Below, in pieces: positions 46,080 through 63,963 of a DNA stretch of 64,000 nt. The stretch covers positions 1 through 64,000 of the forward strand of contig QHSU01000066.1 of NCBI GenBank assembly GCA_003220535.1, in the 5' to 3' direction. Below the pieces are notes generated by a model, which ran no database searches, was not told where the DNA came from, and saw only the letters and a list, made by a program, of their open reading frames with translations. Positions within the stretch are counted from its first letter, which is position 1. Each line of letters starts with the position of its first letter. The stretch is from Candidatus Rokuibacteriota bacterium. GTDB lineage: Bacteria > Methylomirabilota > Methylomirabilia > Rokubacteriales > CSP1-6. Made by a program: the position numbers and the translations under genes.

Positions 46080-46787
46080 CTACAAATGAGTCATCGTGTC
46101 TTGAGACGCGGGCTCGCGCTCGCGGCGGCGGCCGCGCTCGAGGATTTCCCGGGCTACGTGCCGGCCGCCGAGCCCGAAGGCCAGCGCCAGGGCCAGGACG
46201 AGCCCGCCGAAGAGGACGCCGAAGGCGATCAGCACCATGTCGCGGCCGATGCCGATCTCGACGAGCGCGGTGGCGACGGCGAATAGCAGGACGACCCAGC
46301 GAGTGGTCCGGGCCAGGAGCCGCGCCTGGAGCACGCCGGCGTTGACCGCGGTGATCAGCATTGCCTGGGCGAGGAAGTTCGCCGCGAGCCAGCCGACGAC
46401 GAGGATCAGGAGCGCGGACAGCAGGCGAGGCAGGAGGCGCATCAGCATGCCGGTCGCGCCGGGAGCGCCGGGGATCGCCAGCGCATCGATCCCCATCGTC
46501 GCGAAGATCACGAAGATCCCCCAGAACGCGATGAGGCGCAGCACCTGGGACGGCGGCCGATAGATGCCGGCGCGGGCGAGGGCGGACGTGAGGCCCCACG
46601 TCCGACTGCGCTGGTCGAGGTCCAGGGCGTGGGCGAGCCGCGTCACCAGCGTGCCTGCGATCCAGCCCAAGAGAGCGCCGAGCGCCACGAGCGTCAGCAT
46701 GGCCAGAATGCTCGGCAACACGGCGCCGAGCGTGGCCGTCATGTTGCGCATCGCGGTCAGGACGAGATCGCGCCAGAAATCCGTCAT
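46080..46787 (-). CDS. TM-helix repeat / small mechanosensitive-channel-like protein
   Basis: A 235-residue membrane protein with five hydrophobic helices at about residues 22-48, 82-104, 116-143, 158-178 and 182-207. Glycine-containing segments such as ILVVGWLAANFLAQ and ALAFGLGGRHVAREIL are characteristic of the conserved TM-helix repeats found in MscS-like proteins and in CmpX. The beta domain of true MscS is absent. A role in osmotic release is plausible next to the trehalose operon but not demonstrated. GAGGAGGAG precedes ATG 46787. Confidence 0.75.
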   Translation of the reverse strand: MTDFWRDLVLTAMRNMTATLGAVLPSILAMLTLVALGALLGWIAGTLVTRLAHALDLDQRSRTWGLTSALARAGIYRPPSQVLRLIAFWGIFVIFATMGIDALAIPGAPGATGMLMRLLPRLLSALLILVVGWLAANFLAQAMLITAVNAGVLQARLLARTTRWVVLLFAVATALVEIGIGRDMVLIAFGVLFGGLVLALALAFGLGGRHVAREILERGRRREREPASQDTMTHL

Positions 46788-46839
46788 GGACGTCTCCTCC
46801 TCATACTACTCTGCACCGTCCTCTTCCGATCCGCCAGGG

Positions 46840-47661
46840 TCACTCCTTCACCGCGCCCGCGGTGAGCCCCTTGACCAGGAACCGCTGCAGCGCGATGACG
46901 ATCACGACGGGCGGGAGGCTCGCGAGCATCGCCGCCGCGGCGATGTCACCCCACGGCACCTCGAACACCCCCGGGAAGAGCGCCAGCGCCACCGGGATCG
47001 TCCGGCTGGCCTCGGAGACGGTGAACGTGTAGGCGAAGAGGAACTCGTTCCAGCTGAAGAGAAACGTCAGGAGCGCCGTGGAGGCGAGCCCCGGAGCCAG
47101 CAACGGGATCACGACCCACCGGAACAGCCCGAGGAGGCCGGCCCCGTCGACGGCCGCGGCCTCCTCCGCCTCCATCGGGATCTCACGAATGAACCCGGCG
47201 AGAAGCCAGATCGTCAGCGGCAGCGCGAACGAGGCGTGCACGAGGACCAGGCCCGCCCACGTGTCGCGCAGATCGAGCGCGCGCATCAGGAGATAGAGGG
47301 GGCTCACCGTCGCGATCTGGGGAAACGCCGTGCTCGCGACGATGGCGAGAAGCAGCAGGCGCTTGCCCGGCAACGGCAGCCGCGCGACCGCGTACGCGCC
47401 GGGCACGCCCGCGACGAGCGCCAGGAGCGTGGTGAGCGTGGCGATCCCGAGGCTGTTGCCGAGCGCCCGCGGCATCAGGCTCTGCTCGATCACGACGCGA
47501 TAGTGCTCGAGGGTCAATCGGCTGGGCAAGAGCGGCGGGATCCGGAGCAGCTCGGCCTCGGGCTTGAACGAGGTCAGAAGCTGCCAGAAGAAGGGGATCG
47601 CGTAGGCCGCCAGCGCCACCAGGACCGCGACGTCGCCGACCGTCCGGATCGAGCGTCTCAC
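46840..47661 (-). CDS. Sugar ABC transporter permease (MalG/UgpE-like)
   Basis: A 273-residue permease with six helices and the EAA loop EEAAAVDGAGLLGLFRWVVI, by which it would contact the ATPase. It matches the carbohydrate-uptake (CUT1) second permease, MalG/SugB type. With the upstream permease and binding protein it forms a sugar importer. It is the last gene of the trehalose operon in transcription order; no ATP-binding subunit follows, so a shared MsmK/MalK-like ATPase elsewhere is inferred. The GTG start overlaps the previous stop by 4 bases. Confidence 0.9.
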   Translation of the reverse strand: MRRSIRTVGDVAVLVALAAYAIPFFWQLLTSFKPEAELLRIPPLLPSRLTLEHYRVVIEQSLMPRALGNSLGIATLTTLLALVAGVPGAYAVARLPLPGKRLLLLAIVASTAFPQIATVSPLYLLMRALDLRDTWAGLVLVHASFALPLTIWLLAGFIREIPMEAEEAAAVDGAGLLGLFRWVVIPLLAPGLASTALLTFLFSWNEFLFAYTFTVSEASRTIPVALALFPGVFEVPWGDIAAAAMLASLPPVVIVIALQRFLVKGLTAGAVKE

Positions 47662-48530
47662 GCCGCGACCGTGCCCGTGCGGAGGATCTTCAGATACGCC
47701 CACGCGACGGCCATGACGAGGAGGAACACCACGACGCTCAGCGCCGAGCCGAAGCCTAGCTGGAGCGTCTGGAAGAGGGCGCGGTAGGCGTACACCGTGA
47801 GTGTCTCGGTCGTCCCCGCCGGACCGCCGCCGGTCAACACGAACATGATGTCGAACGCGCGAAGCGCGTCGAGCGTCCGGAAGAGCGCGGCCAGGAGCAG
47901 GATCCTGCCGAGCAGCGGCAGTGTGATCCGCGTGAGCGTCGCGAGCCGGCCGGCGCCGTCGACCTGGGCCGCCTCGTACACCTCCGCCGGCACCGCCAGA
48001 AGACGCGCGTAGCAGAGGATCGCGACGAAGGGCATCGTGCGCCACACGTCGGCCAGGATGACGGCGGGCAGGGCGAGCCCGGGGTCGCCGAGCCAGTTGG
48101 CCGAGTGCCGGCCGAGCGTCACGTTGATGAGCCCGGCGGTGGGGTGATAGAGCCACTCGAAGAGCTTCGCCCCGACGACCGCGGGCATCGCCCACGCGAG
48201 CAGCAGGAGCGAGAGCGCCAGGCGGCGGCCGCGCCGCTGGGCGTGAATCGCGAGGGCGGCCATCACGCCCAGCACGACCTCGAGCGCCACGGAGCCCAAG
48301 GTGAAGACCGCGGTCGTGTGAGCCGCGTTCCAGAATCTCGAGTCGACGCCGAGGAACGCGTAGTTGTCGAGGCCGGCGAACCGCGACACGTCGAAGATCG
48401 GGATACGGTGCTGGAGCGAGAGCCAGAGCACCCAGACGCCCGGATAGACCGTGAGCGCGCCGAGCGCCAGGACGGTCGGCGCCAGGCACGCCAGCGCCCG
48501 CCGACGGTCGGCGGCCTGGCGCCGGGTCAT
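47658..48530 (-). CDS. Sugar ABC transporter permease (MalF/SugA-like)
   Basis: A 290-residue CUT1 permease with six helices and EAA motif YEAAQVDGAGRLATLTRITL (about 196-215), ending with GGGPAGTTETLTVYAYRALF typical of MalF/SugA proteins. A short basic N-terminus (MTRRQAADRRRALA) precedes the first helix. ATG 48530 overlaps the binding-protein stop (ATGA). Pairing with the 46840-47661 permease would give the heterodimeric channel of a di- or oligosaccharide importer. Confidence 0.9.
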   Translation of the reverse strand: MTRRQAADRRRALACLAPTVLALGALTVYPGVWVLWLSLQHRIPIFDVSRFAGLDNYAFLGVDSRFWNAAHTTAVFTLGSVALEVVLGVMAALAIHAQRRGRRLALSLLLLAWAMPAVVGAKLFEWLYHPTAGLINVTLGRHSANWLGDPGLALPAVILADVWRTMPFVAILCYARLLAVPAEVYEAAQVDGAGRLATLTRITLPLLGRILLLAALFRTLDALRAFDIMFVLTGGGPAGTTETLTVYAYRALFQTLQLGFGSALSVVVFLLVMAVAWAYLKILRTGTVAA

Positions 48531-49816
48531 CGCAGCGCCTCGAGAAAGTAGCGGAGCCTGGTCCCGGCGTCGGCGATCGCCCGCTCGGGCGACTTGACCC
48601 CGACGAGCGCCGCCGAGAACTCGGGCTGGACGGTCGCGGAGACCAGGAGGTAGTACGGCGTCACCGGCCGCGGCCGACCCGCCAGGGCCAGAGCCAGCAG
48701 TCGTGGCATCGTCGGGCGATCCCGCGCGAGCTCCGGATCTTGGTAGAGGGCCTGGCGCGTCGGGGAGAGCGCGGCTCCGAGCGCGATCGCCCGCTGAGCG
48801 GGCTCGGTCGTGAGGTGTCGCGCCAGGGCCAGCGCCAGCTCCGGGTGCCGACTGCCGCGGGACACGCCCAGGTGCGCGCCCCCCGTCGAGCCCACGCCAC
48901 GCTCGCCCCGCGCGCGACCCGGCAGCGGCGCGAACGCCACCTTCCCGCGCACCGCCGAGTCTTTGCCCTCGAACAGGTCCAGCGCGTACGGCCAGTTGCG
49001 CAGGAAGATCGCGTGACCGTCCCCGAACGCTCGCCGGGAGAGCTCCTCGTCGGCGGCCGTCGTCCAGGCCGGGCTCACTCCCGTCTCGATGAGACCGCGG
49101 AGGAAGCGGAGTGCATCGGCCGCCCGCTCGCGATCTGGAAAGACCGCGCCGTCTTCGGCGAGGAGCCTGGCCCCGTTCGCCCAGAGCGCCTCGAGGACGT
49201 TGACGACCAGCCCTTCGTACTGTTTGCCCTGCCAGAGGTAGCCGTCGAGCGCTGGATCGCGCTCGCCGGCGCGAATGCGGCGGACCTGATCGACGAGTTC
49301 CTCGTAGGTCTCGGGCGGGCGGAGTCCGTACTTGGCCAGAAGGTCGGTGCGGTAGTAGAGGAGGCCGACGTTGAAGTTCCAGGGCAGCGCCCAGACACGC
49401 CCACCGTACTTCGCCGCGGCCACCGTGCTCGCGAAGTACGGGGCGAGCTCGTCCGGCGAGAGATACGGCGTCAGATCGGTGAGCCACCCGGCACGGGCGA
49501 ACTCGGGCACCCAGATGCAGTCGAGCATCATGACGTCGAACCCCGGGCTTCGGCCCTCGAGGTTGATGACGTAGAACTGGTGCTGGTCGTCCGACGTCCA
49601 CGGCAGCGCCTCACCCTTGACGCGCACACCTGGATGCTTGGCCTCGAACGAGCGCAGGAGCGCCGGCAGTGGGTCGGCGTTGCCGAGGATACGCGCGTAC
49701 TTGAACACCAGAGTGACGGGCCCACGCTCCGGCTGACCGCCGGCGCAGCCGCCGAGCACCAGGAGCCAGACCGCCAGAGCCGACCGCAGCGGGAGGTGCT
49801 GGCGTCTCGACCTCAT
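48527..49816 (-). CDS. Sugar-binding lipoprotein (MalE/LpqY-like)
   Basis: A 429-residue extracellular solute-binding protein, family 1. A lipoprotein signal peptide with lipobox LGGC (about 22-25) is followed by the two-lobe fold: FEAKHPGVRVK, PWNFNVGLLYYRTDLLAKYGL, TYEELVDQVRRI and HPELALALARHL are characteristic. It should capture a sugar, probably trehalose, maltose or another disaccharide given its operon. It overlaps the maltokinase-like stop by 4 bases, so recycling of leaked trehalose is a natural hypothesis. Confidence 0.88.
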   Translation of the reverse strand: MRSRRQHLPLRSALAVWLLVLGGCAGGQPERGPVTLVFKYARILGNADPLPALLRSFEAKHPGVRVKGEALPWTSDDQHQFYVINLEGRSPGFDVMMLDCIWVPEFARAGWLTDLTPYLSPDELAPYFASTVAAAKYGGRVWALPWNFNVGLLYYRTDLLAKYGLRPPETYEELVDQVRRIRAGERDPALDGYLWQGKQYEGLVVNVLEALWANGARLLAEDGAVFPDRERAADALRFLRGLIETGVSPAWTTAADEELSRRAFGDGHAIFLRNWPYALDLFEGKDSAVRGKVAFAPLPGRARGERGVGSTGGAHLGVSRGSRHPELALALARHLTTEPAQRAIALGAALSPTRQALYQDPELARDRPTMPRLLALALAGRPRPVTPYYLLVSATVQPEFSAALVGVKSPERAIADAGTRLRYFLEALR

Positions 49817-51339
49817 GATGCGGCGCGCTCGCGCGCCAGCAGCCGAGCGAGTCCGCGCAAGGGGATGCCGAGCCAGGTCGGCCGGTTGTCGAGCTCGTAG
49901 CGGACCTCGTACAGGGCCTTGTCGAGCTCGAAGACCGACAGCGCGCGCGCGAATGCGGACGGCGACGGCGGAAGGAGCCGCGCGGGGGCCCCGGCGACCG
50001 CGTTGCGGTACCCCTCGACAAACGAGGCCGAAGCGCGGCGGACCCAGCGCTCCCCCGCGTGCGTCGTCGCGCTCGTCGGCAGCGTCGCGTGGACGGCATA
50101 GTCGAGCGAGCGGAGCATTCCGGCGACGTCCACCAGCACGCACTGCTTTCGCCGGCGCTCGGCGAGCGGCCGCGCGGGCTCGCCCTCGAAGTCGAGGACG
50201 ACGAATCCCGCATCGGTGCGGAGCGTCTGGCCCAGATGGTAGTCGCCATGGATGCGGATCTTCACGCAGCGCTCGTCGGCGAGCGCCTGGACGTCGCGCA
50301 CCCGTGCGAGGAGCGCGGGGGCGCCGGCGAGCAGCGTCCGCGCGTCGTCCGCGATCTCTCGCGGAAGCGACGGCAGGCGCGCCTGGATCGCCTCACACGT
50401 CCGGCGGATGTCGGCTGCGATGCGCTCGCTCCACTCGGCGGCGTCCTCGGCCGTGAGCGGCTCGGGCGCAAAGCCGGGGTCCCCGGCGCCGGAGGCGAGT
50501 GCCACGTGCAGGGCGCCCGTCACGCCGCCCAGGCGGGCGAGCTCGTGGAAGACGGGCTCGGACAGCTCGTCGATGCGCTCCGGTGGGAGCTGCCGCAGGT
50601 GACCGCCGACCCAGCTCCATCCGTCGCCGTGGTTCGCGACGAAGCCCTGGAGCAGCCCCAGCGTCGTGACCTCGCCGTCCGCCGGGAGGTACTCGATGGC
50701 TCCCGCCAGCGGCGGAACGTGCGGGAACCGGGCTCGAAAGGTCAGGAACGCTCCGATTTCGTAGTCGAGGGTGATGCCGGGCTTCACCCGTCGGAGCGCC
50801 TTCATGACGAGGAGGTCGCCGTAGACCACGGAGGTATTGGACTGCTCCGCGGTCAGCCGGCGGGGCACGATCGAGGCCACGCGTTCGAGCCGCGGAAACC
50901 GCTCGGTCCGGACGAAGCGGATCGTGCCGCCCCGAACAGTCGTCAGGCTCGCGCCCCGCTCGAACAGGGTCAGGAGCTCGAGACAGACGGTCGGATCGTC
51001 GAGGGCGTCGATCGCCCGGATCGGCGCCCCATCGAGGTCGAGCGTCATCGACAGCGTGCTCGGCGCCCCGCCGTCGACACCGAGAACGAGCGGGACCGCG
51101 TATGTCTCGTCCGGGCCCTGGACGAACGTCACGTCCACCAGGGTGAGCCACGCGCGATCGCCGAGCGCCCCACAGTCCCGCAGGCGGACACCCGCGATCG
51201 TGCGCCCCTTGTCGCCGAACCACCGGAGGCGTGGGAGCACCGGCGGGAGCTCGGCCGCGAGGGCCCGCTCGAGCGCGGCGACGATCCGCGCCGGATCGCC
51301 GTGGCGCGCTCCGTCAGATCGCGGTGCGCTCGATGCCAA
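49813..51339 (-). CDS. Maltokinase-like protein (Mak/Pep2 family)
   Basis: A 508-residue kinase. The N-terminal region has the maltokinase-type [10 protein letters not shown] (about 38-47) and the C-terminal aminoglycoside-phosphotransferase-like fold carries [11 protein letters not shown] (catalytic Asp) and [16 protein letters not shown] (metal Asp). Maltokinases make maltose-1-phosphate from maltose and ATP, usually for GlgE-dependent glucan synthesis; glgE is not in the window. In many genomes this domain is fused to or adjacent to TreS, as here. The start overlaps the treS gene by 26 bases. Confidence 0.85.
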
Positions 51340-52999
51340 ACGGCTCGTCGCCGTCGCCGGGGCGCTCCAGGCGGAACCAGTAGAACCCGTGCGGCCCCAG
51401 GCTCAGGAAGTAAGGCGCCGTGCGAATCGTCGGGAACACCGTGCCACCCAGCATCTCGATCGGCGTCACCCCGGCGAAGGCCGCGAGGTCGACCTCGACC
51501 GGCTGGGGCGCCGCCGAAAGGTTGGCGACGATGAGCAGCGTCTCGCGCTCGAACCGGCGCAGGTACGCGAGCACCTTCGAGTTGCGGGGGCGCAAGAACT
51601 CGATGCCGCCCCGCCCGAAGACGGACGACGTCCGCCGCGTCGCCAGGAGCCGCCGCATGGTGTTGAGCAGCGAGGACGGCTGCCGGGTCTGCGCGGCGAC
51701 GTTCACGGCCTCGTAGCCATAAACCGGATCGGTGATGACCGGCAGGTAGAGCTGCCCGTGTTCGGCGCTCGAGAATCCCGCGTTCCGGTCACGCGACCAC
51801 TGCATCGGCGTGCGGACGCCGTTCCGGTCGCCGAGGTACACGTTGTCACCCATGCCGATCTCGTCGCCGTAATAGATGATCGGGCTCCCCGGCAGCGTGA
51901 GCAGCAGGCAGTTCAGCAACTCGACGCGGCGGCGGTCGCCGTCGAGGAGCGGGGCCAGACGCCGGCGGATCCCGAGGTTCAGCTTCATGTCGCGCTCGTG
52001 CGCGTAGGCGTAGTACATGAAGGCCCGTTCCTCGTTGGTCACCATCTCGAGCGTGAGCTCGTCGTGATTGCGCAGGAAGAGGGCCCACTGGCACGCGGGC
52101 GGGATCGGCGGCGTGTGGGTGAAGATGTCGGTGATCGGCCGGGAGTCTTCGAGCCGCAGCCCGAGGTAGAGGCGTGGCATGAGCGGGAAGTGGAACGCCA
52201 TGTGGAACTCGTCGCCGTCGCCGAAGTAGTGGCGGACGTCCTCGGGCCACTGGTTGGCCTCGGCGAGCAGGACCCGGTCGCCTCCGTACTCGCGGTCGAT
52301 GACCGCGCGGAACTCCTTGAGGATCGCGTGCGTCTCCGGCAGGTTCTCGCAGCTCGTGCCCTCGCGCTCCACGAGATACGGCACCGCGTCGCAGCGGAAC
52401 CCGTCGAGGCCCCGGTCGAGCCAGAAGCGCATGACGTCGAGCATCGCGCGACGCACCGCGGGGTTGTCGTAGTTGAGGTCGGGCTGGTGGCTGAAGAATC
52501 GGTGCCAGTAGTATTCCCGGCGCACCGGGTCCGGCGTCCAGTTCGACTTCTCGGTGTCGACGAAGATGACGCGCGCGTCATTGAAGCGCCGGTCGGACGG
52601 GTTCCACACGTAATAGTCGCCGTAGAGCGACGCCGGATTCGAGCGCGAGGCCTGGAACCAGGGGTGCTGATCCGAGGTGTGGTTCATCACGAGGTCGGCG
52701 ATGACCCGGAGGTCGCGGGCGTGCGCGGCGTCGAGGAACTTCTGGAAGTCCTCGACCGTCCCGTACGACGGGTGGATCCCGTAGAAATCGGAGATATCGT
52801 AGCCGTCGTCGCGAAGCGGCGAGGGATACATCGGCAGGATCCACAGGCAGTCGACGCCGAGCTCCTGGACGTAGTCGAGGCTCTCGGTGAGCCCGGCGAA
52901 ATCACCGATGCCGTCGCCGTTGGCGTCCATGAACGCCTTGACGTGCACCTCGTAGAAGACGGCGTCCTTGTACCAGTCGCGGGCGGTGTTGCGCGTCAT
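51314..52999 (-). CDS. treS: Trehalose synthase (maltose alpha-glucosyltransferase)
   Basis: A 561-residue GH13 enzyme that interconverts maltose and trehalose. The (beta/alpha)8 barrel motifs are DLVMNHTSD (about 102-110), [11 protein letters not shown] with nucleophile D204, [12 protein letters not shown] with acid/base E248 and [11 protein letters not shown] with D313. The opening [15 protein letters not shown] and the [14 protein letters not shown]-like region before the C-terminal beta domain are typical of TreS. ATG 52999 overlaps the upstream glycosyltransferase stop (ATGA). Confidence 0.94.
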
Positions 53000-54255
53000 C
53001 GCCAGCGGTCCACCAGGTAGGGCTTCTCGCGCTCGAACGCGTCGGCGACCGCGGCGAGGGCGGCCTCGACGGCCGCCGCGTCGCGCCGTCGCGTCGCCAG
53101 CACGAAGGCCGCCGTCCGACCGAGGTAGAGCGGCACGATCGAGCGCAGCAGGTGGTCGCGGTACACGACGTTGTAGTGATGGCCAAGCGCGAAGTCGTAG
53201 ACCACGTGCGCCCACAGATCGTCCGGGAATCGGAACCGCTCGACGTCGTCCGTCTCGAGGCTCAGCACGTCCCCCAGCGTCTCGGGGGCCAGGACGTGCT
53301 CCCAGATCGTGCCGAGGTCGCGCAACCCGCGGCCGAACGCGCCGACCATGCGCTCGACGTCGATCCGCGCGGGCTCGTCCGAGGCGGGCGCCGGCGGGCC
53401 CTCCACCGGCACCGGGGCGCCGCCCGCCGCCTGGAGCCACAAGTCCTCGTAGCCGTCCATCACGGTGAAGACCCCTCCCAGCGTCTGGGCGACCATCGTG
53501 GGCAGATCGGCGGTGCGCGTTTCCGACTCGACCCGCCACCGGCCGAGCCGCGCCTCGTGCACCGCGAAGCCCTCCGCGATGGCCGTGCCCTCGATCCAGA
53601 GATCCGTCATGCTCCGCCCCGGCGCCGGCCACCGTGGGTCGGCGGCCAGGCGCTCCAGGACTCGCGTCGAGAGCGCCCGCGCGCCCGCCAGGGGCTGGTG
53701 CAGCCGCCGTCCATACAGGGCGCCGACGAGCGGCGCCAGCACGAGATTCGTGATCGTGCCGTCGTACCGCTGCCGGGCGTGCAGGGGCAGCACGAGGTCG
53801 GCGCCCTGCTCGAGCACGGGGCGCGCCAGGCGCTCGAGCCATTCACCGCTGATCGACGTGACGTCGGCCTCGAGCACGACGAGCGCGCGCGCGCCGAGGC
53901 GCCGCGCGACGCCGACCGCCAGCCGGAGCGCGGCGCCGCGGCCGGGCACGCCGTGGAAGGGCACCGCGGCGAGCTGCGCGGCGGGCGACTCGTGATGCGC
54001 GCGCACGAGCGGCAGACCGCTGTCGGCGAGCCGCTCCGCGGTGGCGTCCGACGAGCCCGCGTCGGCGTTGATCAGGACCGTCGTCATGCCGGCGAAGTGC
54101 TTCTCGAGCCCGGCGCGGATGGCGTCCACGACCACGGGCACCGTCGCGGCGTTGTTGTAGGTCGGCACCGTCACGGCGAGGTCCGCCTGCGGCAGGCCCT
54201 CGAGCTGGCGGTCGACGTCGGCGGAGAGCGTCGGGCCGTCCGCGAGCGCGCTCAT
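52996..54255 (-). CDS. Family 2-like glycosyltransferase of unknown product
   Basis: A 419-residue protein with a GT-A fold: [20 protein letters not shown] at the nucleotide-binding N-terminus, then [14 protein letters not shown], and VVLEADVTS as the likely DxD-type metal site. The second half (about 250-410) is helical with no membrane segment. It resembles synthases of glucosylglycerate-type compatible solutes in architecture (GT2/GT81), but I cannot assign donor or acceptor. Placed between treS and the TreT-like gene with 4-base overlaps on each side, it probably makes a trehalose derivative or another osmolyte. Confidence 0.65.
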
Positions 54256-55442
54256 CGGGTCAGGTGGATCACGAGCGCCAGATCGTCGACGAGCTCGCGC
54301 GTGATCAAGAAGGAGCGTCGCACGTGCTCGCGCCCCGCGGCGCCCATGCGCGGAATCAGCTCCGGGTTGTTCAGCAGGTGGCGGATGCGGAAGGCGGCGC
54401 CCTCCACGGAGTAGACCGTGTAGCCGGTCACGTTGGCGATGATCTGCTGCGCGAGCCCACCCGCATAGCCGCCGATGACGGGCTTGCCCTTCCACATCGC
54501 CTCCGCCGGGCCGAGGTCGAAGCCGGTCCGCACCGATTTCTGCAGGACGATCGTGGCGGCGCGCTGAAGCGCGTTGACCTGGCGGTGCGCCTCGGCGGGG
54601 AGCTCGAGGACGACGACGTCGGGGTCCTCGTGGGCGACCTCCAGGAGCTGCGACAGGAGCTCGAGCCGCTCCGGCTCGCCGTCGGCGGTCCCCGCCAGCA
54701 CCAGGCGCACGTCGTGATGTTTCTTGACGAGCCGGTACGCGTTCACGACGCCCAGCGGGTCGTTTGCGCGCGCGAACGGTCCGACCTGCACGAGCAGGGG
54801 CTTGTCGCGCGCGATCCGGAGCGCCCCGAGGATCTCGGTCATCTCGCGCGGCGTGAGATCGCGGTTTCGCTCCGAGAACGGGTCGATCGACGGGGGCACG
54901 ACGTACATCGGGATCCCGAGCCGGCCCTCGAACCCCGGCAGCGAGAAGACCGCGGCATCGTACTGGCCGGCGAACGTCCGGAAGAAGGTCCACGTCCCGG
55001 CCTGCGCCGACGAGCAGTCGAAGTGGCACCGCCAGACCCACCGACCGCCGCTCCGGGCGCTCACGAGGCTCGCCGGCTGGCTGTCGTGCACGAGGGTCAG
55101 GTCCGCGTCGAGGTCGAGCTTCTTCGCGTTGAGGCCGTTCATGTCGACCCAGCGCGCGAGCCCCTCTTCGCTGAGCACGCGCTCGGCGCCCTCGAGGGCG
55201 GCCTGGAGCGTGCGCGCCGTCGCGTAGTACGCGGAGTCGCCCCCCGTGATCTCCCAGCGCGCGTCGATGCCGAGCTCGTTCAGGATGGGCACGGTGGCGC
55301 GCAGGGTCTCGGCCGCGCCGCCGCCGAGACGTCCGCCCGTCACGTGGAGAAACCGCCGGCCCTTGACCTGCTCGGCGAGCTTCAGGATGAAGTCCACCGT
55401 CCCGGGCCGGGCGACCCGCCGGTAGTCGTCGATGCGGCTCAT
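54252..55442 (-). CDS. Trehalose glycosyltransferring synthase (TreT-like), GT4
   Basis: A 396-residue GT-B glycosyltransferase with GGRLGGGAAETLRATVPIL near residues 37-55 and LVQVGPFARANDPLGVVNAY and GGLAQQIIANVTGY in the C-terminal, nucleotide-sugar half. This matches TreT, which joins NDP-glucose and glucose to trehalose and can run in reverse. Similar sequences include mannosylfructose- or trehalose-phosphorylase-like enzymes, so the exact reaction is inferred. ATG 55442 overlaps the DUF5752 stop by 4 bases. Confidence 0.8.
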   Translation of the reverse strand: MSRIDDYRRVARPGTVDFILKLAEQVKGRRFLHVTGGRLGGGAAETLRATVPILNELGIDARWEITGGDSAYYATARTLQAALEGAERVLSEEGLARWVDMNGLNAKKLDLDADLTLVHDSQPASLVSARSGGRWVWRCHFDCSSAQAGTWTFFRTFAGQYDAAVFSLPGFEGRLGIPMYVVPPSIDPFSERNRDLTPREMTEILGALRIARDKPLLVQVGPFARANDPLGVVNAYRLVKKHHDVRLVLAGTADGEPERLELLSQLLEVAHEDPDVVVLELPAEAHRQVNALQRAATIVLQKSVRTGFDLGPAEAMWKGKPVIGGYAGGLAQQIIANVTGYTVYSVEGAAFRIRHLLNNPELIPRMGAAGREHVRRSFLITRELVDDLALVIHLTR

Positions 55443-56101
55443 CCGCGTCCCTCTTCCAGCGTCTCGTCGATGAACCCGAGGAGTCGCGCCCGGACCCGCT
55501 CGAGCGTCGTCAGGTACGGGTCGACCCGCTCGAACCGCTCGGCGAGCGCCGGTAGATCGAGCGCGTCCCGCAGCCACTCGGCGAAGCCCTCGGCGCGGCG
55601 CTCGCGGGCCCGCGTCTCGATGGTGTGCAGATAGATTGCGCTCTCGTCCACGTTCGAGAGGCCGGCGCGGAACTCGACGAGGGTGGTGGCCGCGAGCCCG
55701 AGCGGCACCTCGACGATGTGCGACCGCTGGAAGTGGAATCCGCGGTCGAACTCGACGCGGCCCTCGGCCTCGCGGCCCCGGAGATGATCCTGGACGATCG
55801 TCACCAGATGCTCGCGCAGCCCCTCGAGCGTCGGGAAGGCGAACGGGTCGACGACGGCGAGGCGCTCGGCGAGGGCGCGATCGCCGATCTCGAGCGCGGC
55901 CCACCGGGCGAAGTCGTTGCCGTAGGCGGTCGTGAAGGCGCGGTGCCGGAGGAAGTAGCCGAACGTGTGGAAGAAGATCGACTCCGCCGGCGCCTCTCCG
56001 AGCCGGTGCAGCAGCTCGCGCTCGTCGAGCGCATGCACGTCGAGGGTCTGGCGCAGCTCGACGCAGCCCGAGAACGTGAACGGCTTCGCTGCCTGGCGCA
56101 T
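55439..56101 (-). CDS. DUF5752 family protein
   Basis: A 220-residue soluble helical protein starting RQAAKPFTFSGCVELRQTLD, with HTFGYFLRHRAFTTAYGNDFARW (about 45-67) and repeated Asp/Glu-rich helices. The pattern corresponds to DUF5752, a family I recall as encoded beside TreT-like glycosyltransferases, though no activity is known. The ATG shares a base with the treY stop (TGATG), indicating tight coupling. It may be a subunit or regulator of the neighbouring TreT-like enzyme. Confidence 0.65.
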   Translation of the reverse strand: MRQAAKPFTFSGCVELRQTLDVHALDERELLHRLGEAPAESIFFHTFGYFLRHRAFTTAYGNDFARWAALEIGDRALAERLAVVDPFAFPTLEGLREHLVTIVQDHLRGREAEGRVEFDRGFHFQRSHIVEVPLGLAATTLVEFRAGLSNVDESAIYLHTIETRARERRAEGFAEWLRDALDLPALAERFERVDPYLTTLERVRARLLGFIDETLEEGRG

Positions 56102-59100
56102 CAGTCCTCCCGCACCAGGAGCGCCACCGGAAAGCTCCGGCAGGCACGGGCGAGCTCCAGCACGCCATCCCACGGCTCGACGCGCTCGCCGGTGAGCACG
56201 TTGCGGAAGTGTCCGCCCATGTCGGCGGGCACGACGACATGGGTGTCGTCCGGCCAGTACGCCGCTCCGCACGGGGGCTCGTCCGCCGGCCGCCGCGCGT
56301 AGAGTCGCGGGACCACCGTCAGCGCCACGGCGGCGCCGCAGACCCGCGCGAAGCTGCAGACGTGCGCGGCCAGCGGCCCGCGCGTCTCGAGGGGCCGGTA
56401 GGCGCCCTCGAGGAAGAGCTCGGCCTGGGCGCGGCGAAGCTTGAGGGCCTGATGGATCAGGTACATCTTCACGCGCCCGTCCTCCTTCGTCTCCAGCAGG
56501 CCGTGCGCGAGCGTCGAGAGGTCCGGGCTCGCCGCGATCTCGGCGACGAGCGCGTCGAGCAGCCGCCGCCGCTGCGCAAAATCCACGGGGCGGCGGTTGT
56601 CGGGATCCACCAGGCTCAGGTCCCACAGCTCGGTCCCCTGATAGAAATCGGCCACGCCGGGGATAGTGAGCTTGAGCAGCGTCTGCGAGAGGGCGTTGTA
56701 CATCCCCCAGGCCGAGACCCGTCGCTGGAACGGCAGGAAGTCGTTGAGGAACGAGTTGGGACCCGAGCGGTCGAGGAGCCCGTCGACGAACCGTCGCACG
56801 GCGGCGTCGTACTCGGGCCGCGGGCTGACCCAGCTCGTATTGACCTTGGCCTCCCGGAGCGCCTTGAACATGAACTGCTGGATGCGCTCGGTGAACTCTG
56901 CGTGCTCCGTCTGTGAGACGGGCTCGATCGGCCACGCACCCACCACCGTCTGGTACAGGAGATACTCTTCGTTGCTGTCAGGCGCCGGCTGTCCGTCGAC
57001 CATTGCCTTCCGCTTCCGGTTGAGCCGCTGCCACCGGCGCACGCGCTCCCGCCACTCTATGGGAAGTTCCGAGAGCACGTCGATCCGGGCGCGGACGTCC
57101 TCGCCGCGCTTGGTATCGTGCGTGGCGGTGGCCGAGAACGACCAGGGCCAGGCGGCCTGGCGCTCGACGTTGAGCCGGTGGAACTCCGCCACGGCCACCC
57201 CGAAGCGGGTCGGGGCGCCTCCGACGTCGTTGAGCGAGATCAAGCGGTTGTACCGATAGAACGCGGTGTCCTCGAGCGCCTTGGCCGTGATCGGGCCCGT
57301 CTGCTGCTGGAACTTCCCGACGAACGCCCGCTCCTCCGCTCGGGCCGCCTCGGTCCGCGGGCCGCCCCGGCGCAAGCAGATCAGATCGGCGATGAAGTCG
57401 AAGATCGACTCGCTGACCGTCGGGTTCCGCCGCTTCGCCATCACCGTCGAGAGCTCGACGTACCGCCGGTCGCGTTCGGTCACCGCGGAGCCATCCTCGG
57501 CGACGTAGGTCCGGTATACCGGAAAGCACGCGATGATCTCGCGGAGCGCGCCGGTCAGACTCCGGCGCGTGAAGTCCCGCGAAGCGCGGTCGGCCTCCGA
57601 CAGCCGCGCGAGCCGATGCCCGAGCATGTTCGCCTCGCTGGCCATCAAGGTGTCGATGATGAGCTTCTTGCACTCGTACACGAGGTCGCGAAAGTCGCTG
57701 CGCGTCCGGACGAACCGCGTGTAGATGTCGTCGAGCGCCCGCGCGGCGCCGACATCGACGAGGACGCCGTTGATCGCGTTGAGGATGTCGTATCCGGTGG
57801 TGCCGTGGACCGCCCACGTCTCCGGCAGTCGCTCGTCCGCCATCAGGATCTTCTCGGCGACGATGTAGAACGGGCGGGCCAGCGCGCCGAGAGGATCGGC
57901 CTGGACCCGGCGGTCGAACTCCGCCAGCACCGTCTCGCGCCAGGCGCTCTGCTCGCTCTCCGGCGCGGCGTCGATCCCAGCGAGCGCCGCGGCGGTCTCC
58001 AGAAAGCACCGTCGCTGCAGCCGGCGGAAGTACTCGGCGGGCGCGTAGAGACCGTCGGGATGGTCGATCCGCAGTCCGGTGACGCAGCCGTCGTGGACGA
58101 GACGGAACACGAGCCGATGCGCACCCTCGAAGACCACGGGCTCTTCCATCCGGATCGCCGCCAGCCCGTTGATGTCGAAGAACCGGCGGTAGTTGACCTC
58201 GTCGGCGGCGACCTGCCAGAAAGCCAGCCGGTAGACCTGCTCGCCGAGGAGCTCGTCCAGCCGGTCGAAGCTCGCCGGCTCGCCCTTGACGCCGTTGAAG
58301 AGACGGACGTTGCCGTCGATGAACGCCCTGATCTCGGAGGACGCCTCGACGAGCGTCGCCAGGCGCCGCTTGATGACCTGGCTCTCGCGACCGCGCTCGG
58401 CGACCCGCTCGGCGTCGGTCTCCGTGTAGGCCGGCAAATGCGCCAGCGCCGTGACGATGCTCTTGAGCTCGAGCACGTGCGCGTTGTCCGCGCCGAGCTC
58501 TCGCTCGAGCTCGTCCAGACGCTCGCGGAGGACGAGCGCGTACGAGTGCGGCTCGACCGGCAGGACCGTGTCGTAGTACCTGACGACGAAGGCGCCGTCG
58601 CGCAGCTCCAGCCCGAGCTCCTGGTTCTCGAGGACGTGTCCGTACTGGTCGCCGAGGATCGGCAGGAGGATCTTGTTGCTCAGGAACCGCTCGGCCGGGT
58701 TCCAGTCGATGTCGAAGTAGTTGGCGTAGGACGACGCCGGGCCGTGCTCGAGGACGTCAGCCCACCACGCGTTGCCGTTGCCCGAGATCCCCATGTGGTT
58801 CGGCACCACGTCGATGATCACGCCCATCCGCCGGGCCCGAAGCTCGGCGGCGAGCGCGCGATAGTCGGCCTCGGTGCCGAGCACCGAGTTGAAGCGGCCG
58901 TGGTCGCAGATGTCGTAGCCGTGCGATTCCGAGGAGCACGACTCGAAGAACGGCGACAGATAGTAGTCCGTGATGCCCAAGGTGTCGAGGTAGGCGACGA
59001 CGTCACGCGCGTCGGCGAACGTGAAGGTGCGGTCGAGCTGCAGCCGGTAGGTCGCCGCCGGGACCCGGCGGAAGGTCCGGGGGTCGCGGGCGAGGATCTC

Positions 59101-59133
59101 GACGACCTGATCGGGAGACATCATGGGGGTCAC
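56101..59133 (-). CDS. treY: Maltooligosyl trehalose synthase
   Basis: A 1010-residue GH13 enzyme that turns the reducing end of a maltooligosaccharide into a trehalose unit. The start TYRLQLDRTFTFADARDVV, DVVPNHMGIS, CVTGLRIDHPDGLYAP (nucleophile Asp) and PFYIVAEKIL (catalytic Glu) with ATHDTKRGEDVRARI near residue 678 are diagnostic. The length is somewhat above the 700-950 usual for TreY because of inserted helical segments. GTG 59133 overlaps the treZ stop by 4 bases (GTGA). Confidence 0.95.
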   Translation of the reverse strand: MTPMMSPDQVVEILARDPRTFRRVPAATYRLQLDRTFTFADARDVVAYLDTLGITDYYLSPFFESCSSESHGYDICDHGRFNSVLGTEADYRALAAELRARRMGVIIDVVPNHMGISGNGNAWWADVLEHGPASSYANYFDIDWNPAERFLSNKILLPILGDQYGHVLENQELGLELRDGAFVVRYYDTVLPVEPHSYALVLRERLDELERELGADNAHVLELKSIVTALAHLPAYTETDAERVAERGRESQVIKRRLATLVEASSEIRAFIDGNVRLFNGVKGEPASFDRLDELLGEQVYRLAFWQVAADEVNYRRFFDINGLAAIRMEEPVVFEGAHRLVFRLVHDGCVTGLRIDHPDGLYAPAEYFRRLQRRCFLETAAALAGIDAAPESEQSAWRETVLAEFDRRVQADPLGALARPFYIVAEKILMADERLPETWAVHGTTGYDILNAINGVLVDVGAARALDDIYTRFVRTRSDFRDLVYECKKLIIDTLMASEANMLGHRLARLSEADRASRDFTRRSLTGALREIIACFPVYRTYVAEDGSAVTERDRRYVELSTVMAKRRNPTVSESIFDFIADLICLRRGGPRTEAARAEERAFVGKFQQQTGPITAKALEDTAFYRYNRLISLNDVGGAPTRFGVAVAEFHRLNVERQAAWPWSFSATATHDTKRGEDVRARIDVLSELPIEWRERVRRWQRLNRKRKAMVDGQPAPDSNEEYLLYQTVVGAWPIEPVSQTEHAEFTERIQQFMFKALREAKVNTSWVSPRPEYDAAVRRFVDGLLDRSGPNSFLNDFLPFQRRVSAWGMYNALSQTLLKLTIPGVADFYQGTELWDLSLVDPDNRRPVDFAQRRRLLDALVAEIAASPDLSTLAHGLLETKEDGRVKMYLIHQALKLRRAQAELFLEGAYRPLETRGPLAAHVCSFARVCGAAVALTVVPRLYARRPADEPPCGAAYWPDDTHVVVPADMGGHFRNVLTGERVEPWDGVLELARACRSFPVALLVRED

Positions 59134-60920
59134 TCACCCAAATAGTACGCCGTGAACCAACCGTCGACCTCTCGACCGCCGGCGCGCGCGGATTGCGTGG
59201 CGAAGAGGCATCGACCCGGCGCGCTCCAGGGGGGCGCGTCGAGACAGGCCGGGCCCAGATTGGCGAGGAGCCGGAGCGTCGGGCCCCCCGCCCACGCCCA
59301 CTCCACGGCGAGGCCCGCCGCGCCCAGCCGGACGGAGCTCGCTCGCGCCAGCTTGCGGGCGAGCAACGGGACGATCGTGCGCTGGCGCGTTTGTAAGAGT
59401 TTTCGGGTCCACTCCGCGCGGCGCCGGTGCGCCGGGTGCCCGAGGGCGCTCCAGTCGAGCGTGGATCGCCGAACGGTCTCGACGTCCTGGGGATCGGGGA
59501 TCTGAGCCCGGCTCTGTGCATCCTGGAACCGCGCAAACCGCGCGAACTCGCGCCGCCGGCCTTCGGTCACGGCAGATGCCAGGTCGGGCCCGAAGTCGCA
59601 GAAAAAGAGGAAGGGCGAGGGCGCCGCCCACTCCTCGCCCATGAAGAGCAGCGGCGGTGACGGGGCCAACAGCACGAGCGCCGTGACGGCTTCCACCGCC
59701 GCCTCCGGAGCCAACGCCGTCAGGCGCTCGCCGAACGCGCGATTGCCGATCTGGTCGTGGTTCTGGAGGAACGCCACGAACGCCGTGAGGGGGACGCCCG
59801 TGGTCGGGGTCCCCCGCGGAGCGCCGCGGTAGGGCGAATACTCGCCCTGATAGGCGAAGCCCTCGGTCAGGCAGCGGGCCAGGGCGCCGACCGGGTCGGC
59901 ATAGTCCACGTAGTAGCCGTCTCGCTCCCCGGTCACCTGCGCGTGGAGCGCGTGGTGGATGTCGTCGTTCCACTGGGCGGCACGGAGGCGCCGATCGCCC
60001 GCGGGCGGGCGGAGAAAGCGCGCCTCGTTCGCGTCGTTCTCGAGCACGATGTGTACGGGCCGCGCGGCACCCGGCCCCGCGTGCGCGGCGTCGATGATCT
60101 CGTCGACGATGTGCACGGCTGACTCGTCGTGGATGGCGTGGACCGCGTCGAGCCGGAGCCCGTCCAGCCGAAACTCGTCGAGCCAGTAGAGCGCGTTCTC
60201 ACGGAAGAAGGCGCGAACCCAGCGGCTCTCGTCGCCGTCGAAGTTGATCGCGCGCCCCCAGGGGGTCGAGTGCCGGGCGCTGAAGAACTGGGGCGCGTAG
60301 AGTCCCAGGTAGTTGCCGTCGGGCCCGAAATGGTTGTAGACGACGTCGAGGAACACGGCGAGGCCGCGGGCGTGGCAGGCCTGGACGAACGACTTGAGCG
60401 CAGCGGGACGGCCGTATCGGCTCTCGGGTGCGAAGGGGAGCACGCCGTCGTAACCCCAGCCCCAGCGTCCCGGAAAATCACCGAGCGGCATGAGCTCGAC
60501 GGCGGTGATTCCGAGAGCGGCCAGGTGATCGAGGCGCGCCGTCGCGGCGTCGAGCGTCCCCTCGGGCGTGAAGGTTCCGACGTGGAGCTCGTAGAAAACC
60601 AGCTCCTCCCACGCGCGCCCCCGCCATCCGCCGTCGGTCCACTCGAAGGCCTCCGGATCGATCACCTCGCTCGGCCCGTGGACGTCGTCCGGCTGAAAGC
60701 GCGAGGCCGGGTCGGGCACGAGACGCTCGCCGTCGATGCGGTAGCGATACCGGCTGCCGGCACGCCCGTGAGGCACCTCGACGCGGATCCAGCCCTCGGT
60801 ATCTCGCTCGACCGGAATGGGCGGACCGTCGTCGAGGCAGAGCTCGACACGGCTGGCGGCGGGCGCCCAGAGCGCGAACCGCACGCCGCCCTCGGGCAGA
60901 ACTTCGGCACCGAAGGGCAT
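59130..60920 (-). CDS. treZ: Maltooligosyl trehalose trehalohydrolase
   Basis: A 596-residue GH13 enzyme that releases trehalose from the product of TreY. An N-terminal CBM48-like domain (GGVRFALWAPAASRVELCL) precedes the barrel with VFYELHVGTFTPEGT, DVVYNHFGPDGNYL, DGLRLDAVHAI (nucleophile) and VLENDANEARFL (acid/base). The C-terminal beta domain is present. ATG 60920 was chosen although its ribosome binding site is weak. It lies 35 bases after the otsB stop. Confidence 0.94.
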   Translation of the reverse strand: MPFGAEVLPEGGVRFALWAPAASRVELCLDDGPPIPVERDTEGWIRVEVPHGRAGSRYRYRIDGERLVPDPASRFQPDDVHGPSEVIDPEAFEWTDGGWRGRAWEELVFYELHVGTFTPEGTLDAATARLDHLAALGITAVELMPLGDFPGRWGWGYDGVLPFAPESRYGRPAALKSFVQACHARGLAVFLDVVYNHFGPDGNYLGLYAPQFFSARHSTPWGRAINFDGDESRWVRAFFRENALYWLDEFRLDGLRLDAVHAIHDESAVHIVDEIIDAAHAGPGAARPVHIVLENDANEARFLRPPAGDRRLRAAQWNDDIHHALHAQVTGERDGYYVDYADPVGALARCLTEGFAYQGEYSPYRGAPRGTPTTGVPLTAFVAFLQNHDQIGNRAFGERLTALAPEAAVEAVTALVLLAPSPPLLFMGEEWAAPSPFLFFCDFGPDLASAVTEGRRREFARFARFQDAQSRAQIPDPQDVETVRRSTLDWSALGHPAHRRRAEWTRKLLQTRQRTIVPLLARKLARASSVRLGAAGLAVEWAWAGGPTLRLLANLGPACLDAPPWSAPGRCLFATQSARAGGREVDGWFTAYYLGE

Positions 60921-60955
60921 CGGATGCCGCGTCCGGGCGCCACCCGCTGCGGGTG

Positions 60956-61720
60956 CTAGTCGACCTTGCGCACGATCCATCTCAGCAGGTGGTGCATCTG
61001 CGCGACGCCGTCCACCCAGTACTCGGCACCGCCGCGGCGGGGTCCGACCCGAACCGTCACGCCGCGATCGCGCAACGCCTCGAACGCCGTCTCGTCCGTC
61101 AAGTCGTCGCCCGCATACAGGACGACCGTCCTCCCGGGCGGGAGGGTTCGCTCGTGGTGAACGATCCACCGGGCCGCTTCTCCCTTGGTCCATCCGACGC
61201 GCGGGACGAAATCGAACACTTTGCGACCGCCGACGACCGTGAGATCGGGAGCTCCGCGGGCGATCCGGGTGACCAGCTGATGGACGTCCTGGCGGTGCGA
61301 GGGCGCCACGTTCCGGTAGTGCATGCTGACACAGAGCCGCTTGAACTCGACGTGGGCCCCGGGGATGTCAGCGGCGCCCACGCGGAGCGCGCGCCCGACC
61401 GCGGCGACGCGAAGCGGGCGCACGCGCGGGTGACGGAAGCGCAGGCCGCGCCCCTCGATCTCGAGTCCGTGACAGCCGCCGTAGACGACAGCGTCGAGGC
61501 CGACCCGGCGCCGGACGTCCGCCAGCGCCCGGCCCGACAGGATCGCGAGCCGCGCGCGCTTGCTCCGCGCCAGTCGCGAGAGCGTCGCGCGGACCGTCGG
61601 CGCCAGCACGGCTAAGTCCGGCGAGGAGGCGATCGGCGCCAGGGTCCCGTCGTAGTCGAGGATCGCCATCAGGCCGGCACCGGCCTCGAGCTCGTGATCG
61701 AGACGACCGAGAAGACGCAC
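60956..61720 (-). CDS. otsB: Trehalose-6-phosphate phosphatase
   Basis: A 254-residue HAD-superfamily phosphatase. Motif I is LDYDGTLAPI with the nucleophilic Asp, motif II LAILSGR, the cap is small, and motif IV GDDLTDETAFEAL binds magnesium. It dephosphorylates trehalose-6-phosphate. GTG 61720 is inferred because it lies 8 bases after the otsA stop and gives the normal short N-terminus; a CTG at the stop itself is less likely. The typical EVRP segment is represented by HVEFKRLCVSMHYRNV. Confidence 0.9.
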   Translation of the reverse strand: MRLLGRLDHELEAGAGLMAILDYDGTLAPIASSPDLAVLAPTVRATLSRLARSKRARLAILSGRALADVRRRVGLDAVVYGGCHGLEIEGRGLRFRHPRVRPLRVAAVGRALRVGAADIPGAHVEFKRLCVSMHYRNVAPSHRQDVHQLVTRIARGAPDLTVVGGRKVFDFVPRVGWTKGEAARWIVHHERTLPPGRTVVLYAGDDLTDETAFEALRDRGVTVRVGPRRGGAEYWVDGVAQMHHLLRWIVRKVD

Positions 61721-61728
61721 CGGGAGGC

Positions 61729-63963
61729 TCAGGACGCCTTGGCGCCCGCCTCGATGGGGATCCTGGCCAGCTCGCTCAGCAAGAGCCCGGCCCATCGATA
61801 GATGTTGTGGTCGACGACGGAATGGCGCATCCGAACCATGCGCGCGCGGCGCTCCTCCGGCGGCATCTCGAGCGCCGTGCGGATGGCCTCGGCCATGCCG
61901 GCGAGGTCGTACGGGTTCACGATCAACGCGTCGCGGAGCTCGTGCGAGGCCCCCGCGAACCGGCTCAGGATGAGCGCGCCGTCCTCGTCGTCACGGACCG
62001 AGACGAACTCCTTGGCCACGAGGTTCATGCCGTCATGGAGCGAGGTCACCATGCAGAAGTCCGCGTGGCGGTAGTAGGCCCAGATGTCGCGATGCTCGTG
62101 ATGGGCCTTCATGTAGTGGATAGGGCGCCAGGTTTTCGTCTGGAACGCCTGGTTCAGCTCGCGCACCTGCTCCTCGATCTCGCGCTGGATCTCCTGGTAG
62201 CGATCGATCATGCCGCGGCTGGGCGCGGCGAGCTGCACGAACACCAGCCGCTCACGATAGTCGGGGTAGGTCTCGAAGAAGAAGCGCAGGGCCCGGATCC
62301 GCTCGGGCAGGCCCTTCGTGTAGTCGATCCGCTCGACGCCGACCCCGAGGAACTCGGCCGTGATCCCCAGCCGGCGCAGCAGCTCCGCGCGGGAGACGCG
62401 GAGCGGATCGTCCACGAACTCGGGGGCGACGCTGATCGGAAACGGCTTGACGTACGTCGTGTGCTCGCCACGCGTCACCGAGAAGCGCTCCCAGTCGGTG
62501 CGCGTCTCGAGCGCACGGTCCACCGTTTCCAGGAAGTTGTTGCAGTAGTACTGGGTGTGGAAGCCGATCAGGTCGGCGCCGAGCATGCCGAGGAGCAGCT
62601 CGCTCTGCCAGGGGCAGATTCCGAAGGCCTCGAAGTTCGGCCAGGGAATGTGCCAGAAGATGGCCACGCGCGCGTCGGGACGCTCGGCCTTGATGAGCGC
62701 CGACAGCGGAGCGAAGTGGTAGTCCTGGATGAGGACGAGCGGCGCCTCGGCATCCTTGATCTGGTCCAGCACCGTGTCGGCGAACTTCTGATTCACCTCG
62801 AGGTAGTACGCCCAGTCGTCGGGCCGGAAGACCGGCCGCGTGTGCACGATGTGGCAGAGCGGCCAGAGCCCTTCGTTGGAGAAGCCAGAGTAGTACCCTT
62901 GCTCCTCTTCCTTCGTGAGCCACACCCGCCGCAACGTGTAGCGCGGATCGTCGACCGGAACGCCGAGCCGGCCGCGGCCGTCCGCAGTCTCCCGGTCGGC
63001 GTCGCCGCTGGCGTGCGCGACCCAGACGCCCCCGCAGGCGCGCATCACCGGATCCATCGCGGTCACGAGACCGCTGGCCGGAGCCTGCGCTTGCACCTGG
63101 CCACCCCGCCACACGTGGCTCACGGGTTCGCGGTTGGACACGACGACCAGCAGCCGGCCGTTGAGCTGCATGCTGACGAACTGCTTGAGGCGCTCCTCGG
63201 TCCAGACGCTCTCGCCGGACAGGCGCAAGGCCGCTTCCTGCTCGGCGGCGGCCTGGGCCCGCTGCATGCTGCGCGCCAGGCGCGAGACCTCGAGCGCGAG
63301 CGGCCCGAACATATTGGCGTCGACGACGTTGCGCGGCGGCGGAACCGGGCGTCCGCTCCGGAGCGCCCGCGTCCACTGAGAAATCTCCGCCATCGGTCGG
63401 GTGATGCTGATTTTCACCACCAGCGCGATGATGACCGAGATGACCAGGGCCAGCACGAGGAACCGCACGGCGTTGTAGCTCCAGCGATCCCACTCCGCCC
63501 GCTCCAGCTCCGAGGCGTCGAGGAGGACCGCGACCGCGCCGACGGGCTGGTCGTCGGCGAGCAGAGGCGTCGCGTAGATGTAGCGGGTGCGGTCGCCGAG
63601 AACCCTGATCCCCTGGGTCGGGACGTTCTGGGAGATCGCGTCGGTCACCTCGGATAAGGACGGCGGGAGAATCGGCGCGATGTCGGGTGTCGCGACCCGC
63701 AGGGTGGCGAAGCGATCGTAGACGGCGATCCCGCGCTGGTTCTGCCCGAACTTCTTGACGATCCGCTCGATAGCCGCCGTCGACTGCTTGGCCGCCGCCG
63801 GCTCGATCGCGTCGCTCAACCCTTCGGCGACCAGCGCCGCGCGCCGCTGCAGATCGCCGACCATGCGGCCGCGCTCCTCTCGGATCTGCAGGTACGCGAA
63901 GCCGCCGATGACCAGCATCACCGAGATCCAGATCGCGCTGACGAGACGAAGGGTGAATTTCAC
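61729..63963 (-). CDS. otsA: Membrane sensor-fused trehalose-6-phosphate synthase
   Basis: A 744-residue fusion. Residues 8-25 and 166-185 are transmembrane helices enclosing an extracytoplasmic region of about 140 residues ([20 protein letters not shown], a Cache/PAS-like strand set). Residues about 186-240 are HAMP-like ([20 protein letters not shown]), and residues about 265-740 are a complete GT20 Ots[54 protein letters not shown] and [12 protein letters not shown]. OtsA makes trehalose-6-phosphate from UDP-glucose and glucose-6-phosphate; ordinary OtsA is about 460-480 residues and soluble. A direct membrane or osmotic signal to the synthase is inferred. The GTG start overlaps an upstream stop (GTGA). 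Confidence 0.9.

Follow-up and report, generated by a model that had tools for sequence, protein, structure and literature searches.

The stretch of DNA analysed here (the window) comprises 64,000 nucleotides of contig QHSU01000066.1 from a Candidatus Rokuibacteriota bacterium. Near its end lies an otsA gene predicted to encode a membrane-bound trehalose-6-phosphate (T6P) synthase, in which the GT20 catalytic domain is preceded by two transmembrane (TM) helices, an extracytoplasmic single Cache (sCache) domain between them and a HAMP domain. The analysis confirms that a chemoreceptor- or kinase-like architecture is joined to an intact enzyme, and this joining is both conserved and old. An assembly artefact is ruled out by six same-genus relatives that carry the same gene with 86–93% identity. 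No other GT20 gene was found in the host genome (93.8% complete, 8.2% contamination).

A Cache-HAMP membrane region joined to an intact GT20 domain

An initial annotation of this DNA had described two hydrophobic helices flanking an extracytoplasmic segment, a HAMP-like stretch and a full GT20 domain with the expected motifs, and each of these features is borne out by comparative data. In an alignment of 83 sequences, the query among them, that remained of 100 after filtering at 85% identity, a TM1-like hydrophobic stretch is present in 82 and a TM2-like stretch in 81, and none of the 83 has a hydrophobic stretch inside the sensor part. The structure model that had been called for was produced with AlphaFold2 and has a pLDDT of 87.7 for the full protein and 88.8 for the N-terminal part.

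The region between the two TM helices adopts a PAS-like fold with a long N-terminal helix in the model and by structure match, as is characteristic of a single Cache domain. A family profile built from 69 N-terminal parts, compared with solved structures, matched the WalK sensor domain with E = 2.3e-4; weaker matches were to the HAMP domains of a methyl-accepting chemotaxis protein (E = 0.0046 and 0.0093) and of AF1503 (E at least 0.05). The query protein itself has no match to a Pfam Cache model, and 20 of the 69 relatives match sCache_3_2 at E ≤ 1, the best at 1.4e-8. HAMP domains carry a proline in their first helix and a glutamate in their second. The corresponding residues, P190 and E225, are kept in 99% and 98% of the 83 sequences, and lie in two amphipathic helices whose hydrophobic positions fall 3–4 residues apart (187, 191, 194, 198 and 201; 222, 226, 229, 233, 236 and 240). 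Because Fourier power at the heptad angle is low (0.12 in both helices), amphipathy is judged here from this position spacing.

The catalytic domain matches Pfam GT20 over residues 273–733 with 394.8 bits (cut-off 32.5), and solved OtsA structures match across the whole domain, with Foldseek TMt values of 0.84–0.91 among the matches listed. The residues R278, G298, W314, N363, W367, D414, H438, R545, K550, D644 and E652, which we take to correspond to the donor and acceptor residues of E. coli OtsA, are invariant in 70 sequences.

Distances between landmark residues differ markedly along the protein. W161 and P190 are separated by 29 residues in all 81 scorable sequences (two have gaps), E225 and W254 by 29 residues in 77 of 83 (28 in one, 30 in five), and W254 and N277 by 23 residues in every sequence. 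The P190–E225 distance varies from 32 to 36 residues (82 scorable), and the distance from R41 to D149, across the sensor, from 101 to 122 (81 scorable). Length is therefore fixed on the presumed signal path and free elsewhere, which is the pattern expected of a coupled transducer.

Conservation follows a gradient, with the mean frequency of the commonest residue rising from 0.43 in the sensor to 0.52 in HAMP, 0.62 in residues 243–271 and 0.72 in GT20; across phyla, the joining stretch is thus more conserved than HAMP. Compared with the six same-genus relatives, omega (the ratio of nonsynonymous to synonymous rates) is 0.22–0.36 for Cache, 0.04–0.14 for HAMP and 0.055–0.117 for GT20, with 0.05–0.17 for TM1 and 0.04–0.44 for TM2. 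Four more distant relatives gave 0.42–0.58, 0.18–0.33 and 0.21–0.26 for Cache, HAMP and GT20, values that are less reliable because synonymous divergence (dS) in these regions reaches 0.55–1.15. Judged from these substitution patterns, the sensor is constrained, though less so than HAMP and the enzyme.

Table 1. Features of the fused otsA gene and of the genes on the same strand (window coordinates; ORF, open reading frame)
Feature	Coordinates	Strand	Remarks
sCache-HAMP-GT20 fusion, predicted membrane-bound trehalose-6-phosphate synthase (otsA)	61729..63963	(-)	GTG start, 744 aa
TM helix 1, residues 8-27	63883..63942	(-)	hydrophobic in 82/83 sequences; within long helix 2-58 of model
Extracytoplasmic single Cache (PAS-like) domain, residues 28-155	63499..63882	(-)	profile and structure matches
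TM helix 2, residues 156-186	63406..63498	(-)	hydrophobic stretch; invariant W161-P190 spacing
HAMP domain, residues 187-242, includes P190 and E225	63238..63405	(-)	family profile, motif, spacing
Joining stretch, residues 243-271: end of second HAMP helix and W254-L259 helix	63151..63237	(-)	HAMP-enzyme junction
GT20 catalytic domain, residues 272-736	61756..63150	(-)	Pfam, structure match, invariant residues
otsB, trehalose-6-phosphate phosphatase	60956..61795	(-)	listed ORF start perhaps too early
treZ	59130..61193	(-)	listed ORF start perhaps too early
treY	56101..59133	(-)	
treT-like trehalose synthase	54252..56240	(-)	below model cut-off; ORF start too early
Glycosyltransferase, weakly like glucosyl-3-phosphoglycerate synthase	52996..55041	(-)	below cut-off; no Pfam match at 0.001; ORF start too early
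treS	51314..53842	(-)	ORF start too early
Maltokinase-like	49813..51339	(-)	359.8 bits, cut-off 375
Solute-binding protein, sugar-type ABC transporter	48527..50143	(-)	ORF start too early
ABC transporter permease	47658..49601	(-)	BPD_transp_1; ORF start too early
ABC transporter permease, GlcU/MalG-like	46840..48489	(-)	ORF start too early
Mechanosensitive-channel-like membrane protein	46080..46787	(-)	NCBIfam 63.5 bits, cut-off 100; Pfam MS_channel_1st_1 above cut-off

Distribution and ancestry of the fusion

A search for the same domain order across genomes, as the initial annotation had proposed, found the fusion in many bacterial groups. Scanning one genome per species yielded at least 583 confirmed relatives. 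Of the 80 best-matching ones, which were retained, 71 align from residue 5 or earlier to residue 724 or later, in a set biased to full-length copies by the retention of best matches and by two N-terminal seed peptides among six. Record titles in this set mention Rokubacteria, Methylomirabilota, Nitrospirae, Elusimicrobia, Acidobacteria, Omnitrophota, Bacteroidetes, Verrucomicrobia, Gemmatimonadetes, Edwardsbacteria, Deltaproteobacteria and Patescibacteria/Daviesbacteria, although many are metagenome-assembled and single records are possibly misbinned. None of the 359 matching records among 72,556 plasmid records covers 80% of the query.

The frequency of the fusion was surveyed by hand-counting matches to a profile, A1, with a locus counted as fused when a complete GT20 locus includes the sensor part (profile start ≤6, end ≥741). 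Denominators are all complete GT20 loci, excluding fragments and contig-edge matches. Since A1 was built from fused proteins, very divergent sensors would count as absent; the search tool also reads through stops, and some matches with and without the sensor carry one, as do five of the eight Nitrospirota fusions that match more strongly. Open-frame length had been considered as a sign of fusion and was rejected in favour of profile coverage, because bifunctional OtsA-OtsB proteins are equally long. By this measure the sensor part is present at 52 of 60 loci in the window's own phylum (95 genomes), 16 of 62 in the phylum of the acidobacterial locus G100 (149 genomes), 28 of 78 in the phylum of the Nitrospirae locus G096 (148 genomes) and 2 of 20 in the class of the Niastella genome G109 (149 genomes). 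In 19 of 23 genomes carrying the fusion, a single GT20 match was found.

As to the possibility that the two parts exist as separate genes in homologues, raised initially as grounds for rejecting the fusion, no intact neighbouring pair was seen, although no systematic search for split genes was made; two interrupted or contig-edge cases were seen (G339 and G431). At another locus (L112:3042-5210, G015), the fused gene matches in several pieces and seems to be interrupted, and other relatives have intact copies.

A tree of 134 GT20 domains was built with a quick method, SH-aLRT support only and a midpoint root. The window's own sequence is absent from it because it served as the reference of the similarity filter, as are relatives above 85% identity to it, the nearest remaining rows being L004, L089, L090 and L092; two truncated sequences (L047 and L078) and four duplicates were also dropped. 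The fused or bifunctional label of L176 and those of most bifunctional rows were assigned by extension length alone. The 81 fused rows form one group (support 98). A second, divergent TM-sensor-TM-GT20 form (L196, L197, L198 and L199; support 85) joins a copy from an Aminobacter plasmid to form the sister of this main group, the five rows having support 100 and the joint 86 rows support 95. The simplest reading of this topology is a single fusion that then spread, with sensor and HAMP lost in the Aminobacter line. In Nitrospirota, 20 of the 28 fusions score about 823–843 bits and appear to be the second form, judging by L196, the one inspected; the 20 genomes in this score band are 3.5–4.5 Mb in size, and nine also carry a sensor-free GT20.

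A different membrane fusion was noted in the acidobacterial survey, in which a many-helix N-terminal half and GT20 share one open frame: L190:1792-5430 (G381), L191:2004-5555 (G319), L192:2066-5953 (G353), L193:2086-4845 (G293) and L194:2141-4876 (G279). All three that were tested with Pfam (L190, L191 and L194) contain the Na+/H+ exchanger domain PF00999, and no paper on an antiporter-GT20 fusion was found in a literature search. These five rows and two antiporter-free rows form one supported group outside the sensor-fused group. Because this separate GT20 lineage is fused to an antiporter, an input from the membrane may have become coupled to GT20 on more than one occasion.

Gene neighbourhood

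The fused gene was initially described as opening a twelve-gene trehalose operon. Twelve same-strand genes, otsA included, do span 46080–63963, and otsA is plausibly the first gene of the predicted operon; its first place is uncertain because a histone-deacetylase-family gene lies about 160 bp upstream on the same strand. Between 51314 and 63963, four trehalose routes (OtsAB, TreYZ, TreT-like and TreS) and the maltokinase-like gene occur in one run.

Nine genes were tested around the other fused loci, within flanks of at most 6 kb and often less. Consistent with a T6P-synthase role, otsB lies immediately downstream in 45 of the 78 loci with enough flank, and anywhere nearby in 53 of 80. A treT-like match is found near 44 of 80, some of which are perhaps other GT4 enzymes. 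The remaining neighbours are rarer (of 80: treS 8, treZ 5, glycosyltransferase 4, maltokinase 2, permease 2, treY 1, channel 1), so an osmotic interpretation leans on the neighbourhood in this genome and on what trehalose is known to do.

Close to one fused otsA (in G027), L102:5529-7070 encodes a histidine kinase whose sensor-HAMP part is related to that of the fusion, and similar kinases are indicated by profile match alone in G029, G030, G031 and G017. It is possible that such a kinase was the source of the sensor module, or is a partner sensing the same signal.

A candidate one-protein transducer and its relation to known systems

We favour, with a probability of roughly 0.6, a one-protein transducer with a metabolic output, in which the Cache sensor gates GT20 through HAMP. 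The periplasmic Cache domain, probably dimeric through its long helices and HAMP, would shift state on ligand binding or an envelope change, and TM2 would hand this movement on to HAMP. The second HAMP helix is predicted to run with near-fixed spacing into the short helix at W254 and the strand that opens the N-terminal Rossmann lobe of GT20; HAMP might thereby favour an open or closed form of the enzyme and set the rate of T6P synthesis, from which OtsB, encoded by the next gene, would make trehalose. Mycobacterial OtsA is reported to take open and closed forms, with large alpha-1 movements in its more dynamic N-terminal domain, to assemble into different oligomers and to have an allosteric site where protomers meet (PMC6879718). 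The lobe adjoining the HAMP helix would thus be the moving lobe, which makes gating plausible. Because HAMP and the spacing are conserved, the sequences are best read as suggesting that trehalose synthesis responds to a signal from the envelope. Only gene context suggests that this signal may be tension, turgor or a solute, and that it is osmotic is a guess.

Several observations weigh against gating. Pfam HAMP gives no match at E ≤ 1 with the whole query protein; the N-terminal 279 amino acids reach 13.9 bits against PF00672 (E = 0.069), below the cut-off of 25, and only 18 of 69 family members match even at E ≤ 1. No ligand pocket was identified in the Cache domain and no ligand could be named. 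The NCBIfam OtsA equivalog TIGR02400 is matched with 427.5 bits, under its cut-off of 564.85, and the fused protein lies far from rhizobial and Pantoea OtsA in the GT20 tree. For these reasons the assignment is limited to the GT20 family, to which the protein belongs by its domain match, with OtsA activity (predicted formation of T6P from NDP-glucose and glucose-6-phosphate) being likely. Many free-standing GT20 relatives lack a sensor, and in 5 of 20 loci (L201, L202, L204, L206 and L213) these enzymes start at or just before the W254 helix. The W254–L259 motif was therefore rejected as proof of coupling, and the segment from P190 to about residue 250 is what speaks for it. In addition, omega of residues 243–271 (0.13–0.35) exceeds that of GT20 in all six same-genus comparisons, and the joining stretch appears less constrained within the genus than would be expected of a tight coupler. 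This slightly lowers our confidence in gating and slightly raises the standing of a simpler role for the N-terminal part.

That role, which we consider unlikely although it is the strongest competitor, is to anchor or localise OtsA at the membrane, for example by a sugar importer or a trehalose consumer, with its activity uncontrolled. The sugar-type ABC transporter genes in the window's gene run would fit such a placement, as would a sensor that evolves faster than the enzyme. Moreover, the Aminobacter relative in the sister group (L221:3782-5599, A. aminovorans plasmid pAA02) has one N-terminal hydrophobic helix and neither sensor nor HAMP, and is thus an anchor-only form. The initial annotation had named an anchor lacking both a conserved sensor fold and an effect on activity as its refutation; the sensor fold is conserved in the fused family, while the Aminobacter copy and the many sensor-free relatives count against the initial reading. 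However, an anchor has no need of a conserved Cache fold, of a HAMP domain about as constrained as the enzyme, or of near-fixed spacing from TM2 through HAMP to the enzyme.

Much less probably, information might flow the other way: HAMP would carry the substrate-bound state of the enzyme outward or sideways to partner proteins, making OtsA a reporter of sugar-phosphate status. Arthrobacter OtsA has been reported to sense osmotic stress together with T6P (PMC5685639), and the histidine kinases near some fused genes could be such partners. However, otsB and treT-like matches are the only ones of the nine tested neighbour genes that turn up widely beside the fusion, and Cache domains face outward and normally receive signals. 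A decaying, functionless leftover of gene fusion is very improbable, since, although sensor-free relatives exist, same-genus comparisons put omega of the Cache domain far under 1, and 81 rows that form one group in the tree retain the architecture.

Should the receptor part indeed gate the enzyme to which it is fused, signal and synthesis would reside within one molecule, providing a simple testable system for HAMP driving an ordinary metabolic enzyme. In a soil bacterium, an outside signal may then directly switch production of the protective sugar trehalose. With odds just short of even, the fusion would represent an old, widespread one-component route by which an extracytoplasmic Cache domain gates T6P synthesis directly via HAMP, without transcription or a phosphorelay. 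The link between outside conditions and bacterial osmolyte synthesis is usually explained through transcription and transport. Direct gating would have consequences for how trehalose is controlled in Acidobacteriota, Methylomirabilota/Rokubacteria, Nitrospirota, Elusimicrobiota and Omnitrophota, phyla of which much is known solely from metagenomes.

No description of a HAMP- or sensor-fused OtsA was found in the literature searched, which mostly did not cover subscription journals. A HAMP and GT20 architecture may be listed in domain databases. The available portions of PMC1183210 and PMC11046441 contain nothing on a sensor-fused OtsA. Soluble OtsA from E. coli and M. thermoresistibile shares the catalytic fold and presumed catalytic residues with the fusion but lacks a membrane sensor. 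Mycobacterial OtsA is reported to be controlled by cytosolic metabolites (PMC6879718), whereas the fusion has an outside-facing sensor part. Arthrobacter OtsA is tied to osmotic stress sensing, but no membrane sensor part is described and the word 'transmembrane' is absent from the text available (PMC5685639). Bifunctional OtsA-OtsB proteins resemble the fusion in having GT20 and a length of about 740 amino acids; their extra domain, however, is a C-terminal Trehalose_PPase (shown for L181), and they fall outside the fused group in the tree. Sensor histidine kinases of the WalK/CitA/DcuS type have the TM-sCache-TM arrangement in common with the fusion, by sequence profile and structure match, and WalK-type kinases also carry HAMP; their output is HisKA-HATPase, whereas that of the fusion is a glycosyltransferase. 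HAMP-linked enzymes such as membrane adenylate or diguanylate cyclases likewise use HAMP, within one protein, to connect an outward-facing sensor with a catalytic domain, but produce second messengers rather than the precursor of a compatible solute. The fusion is thus a new output, GT20, on a known kind of transducer.
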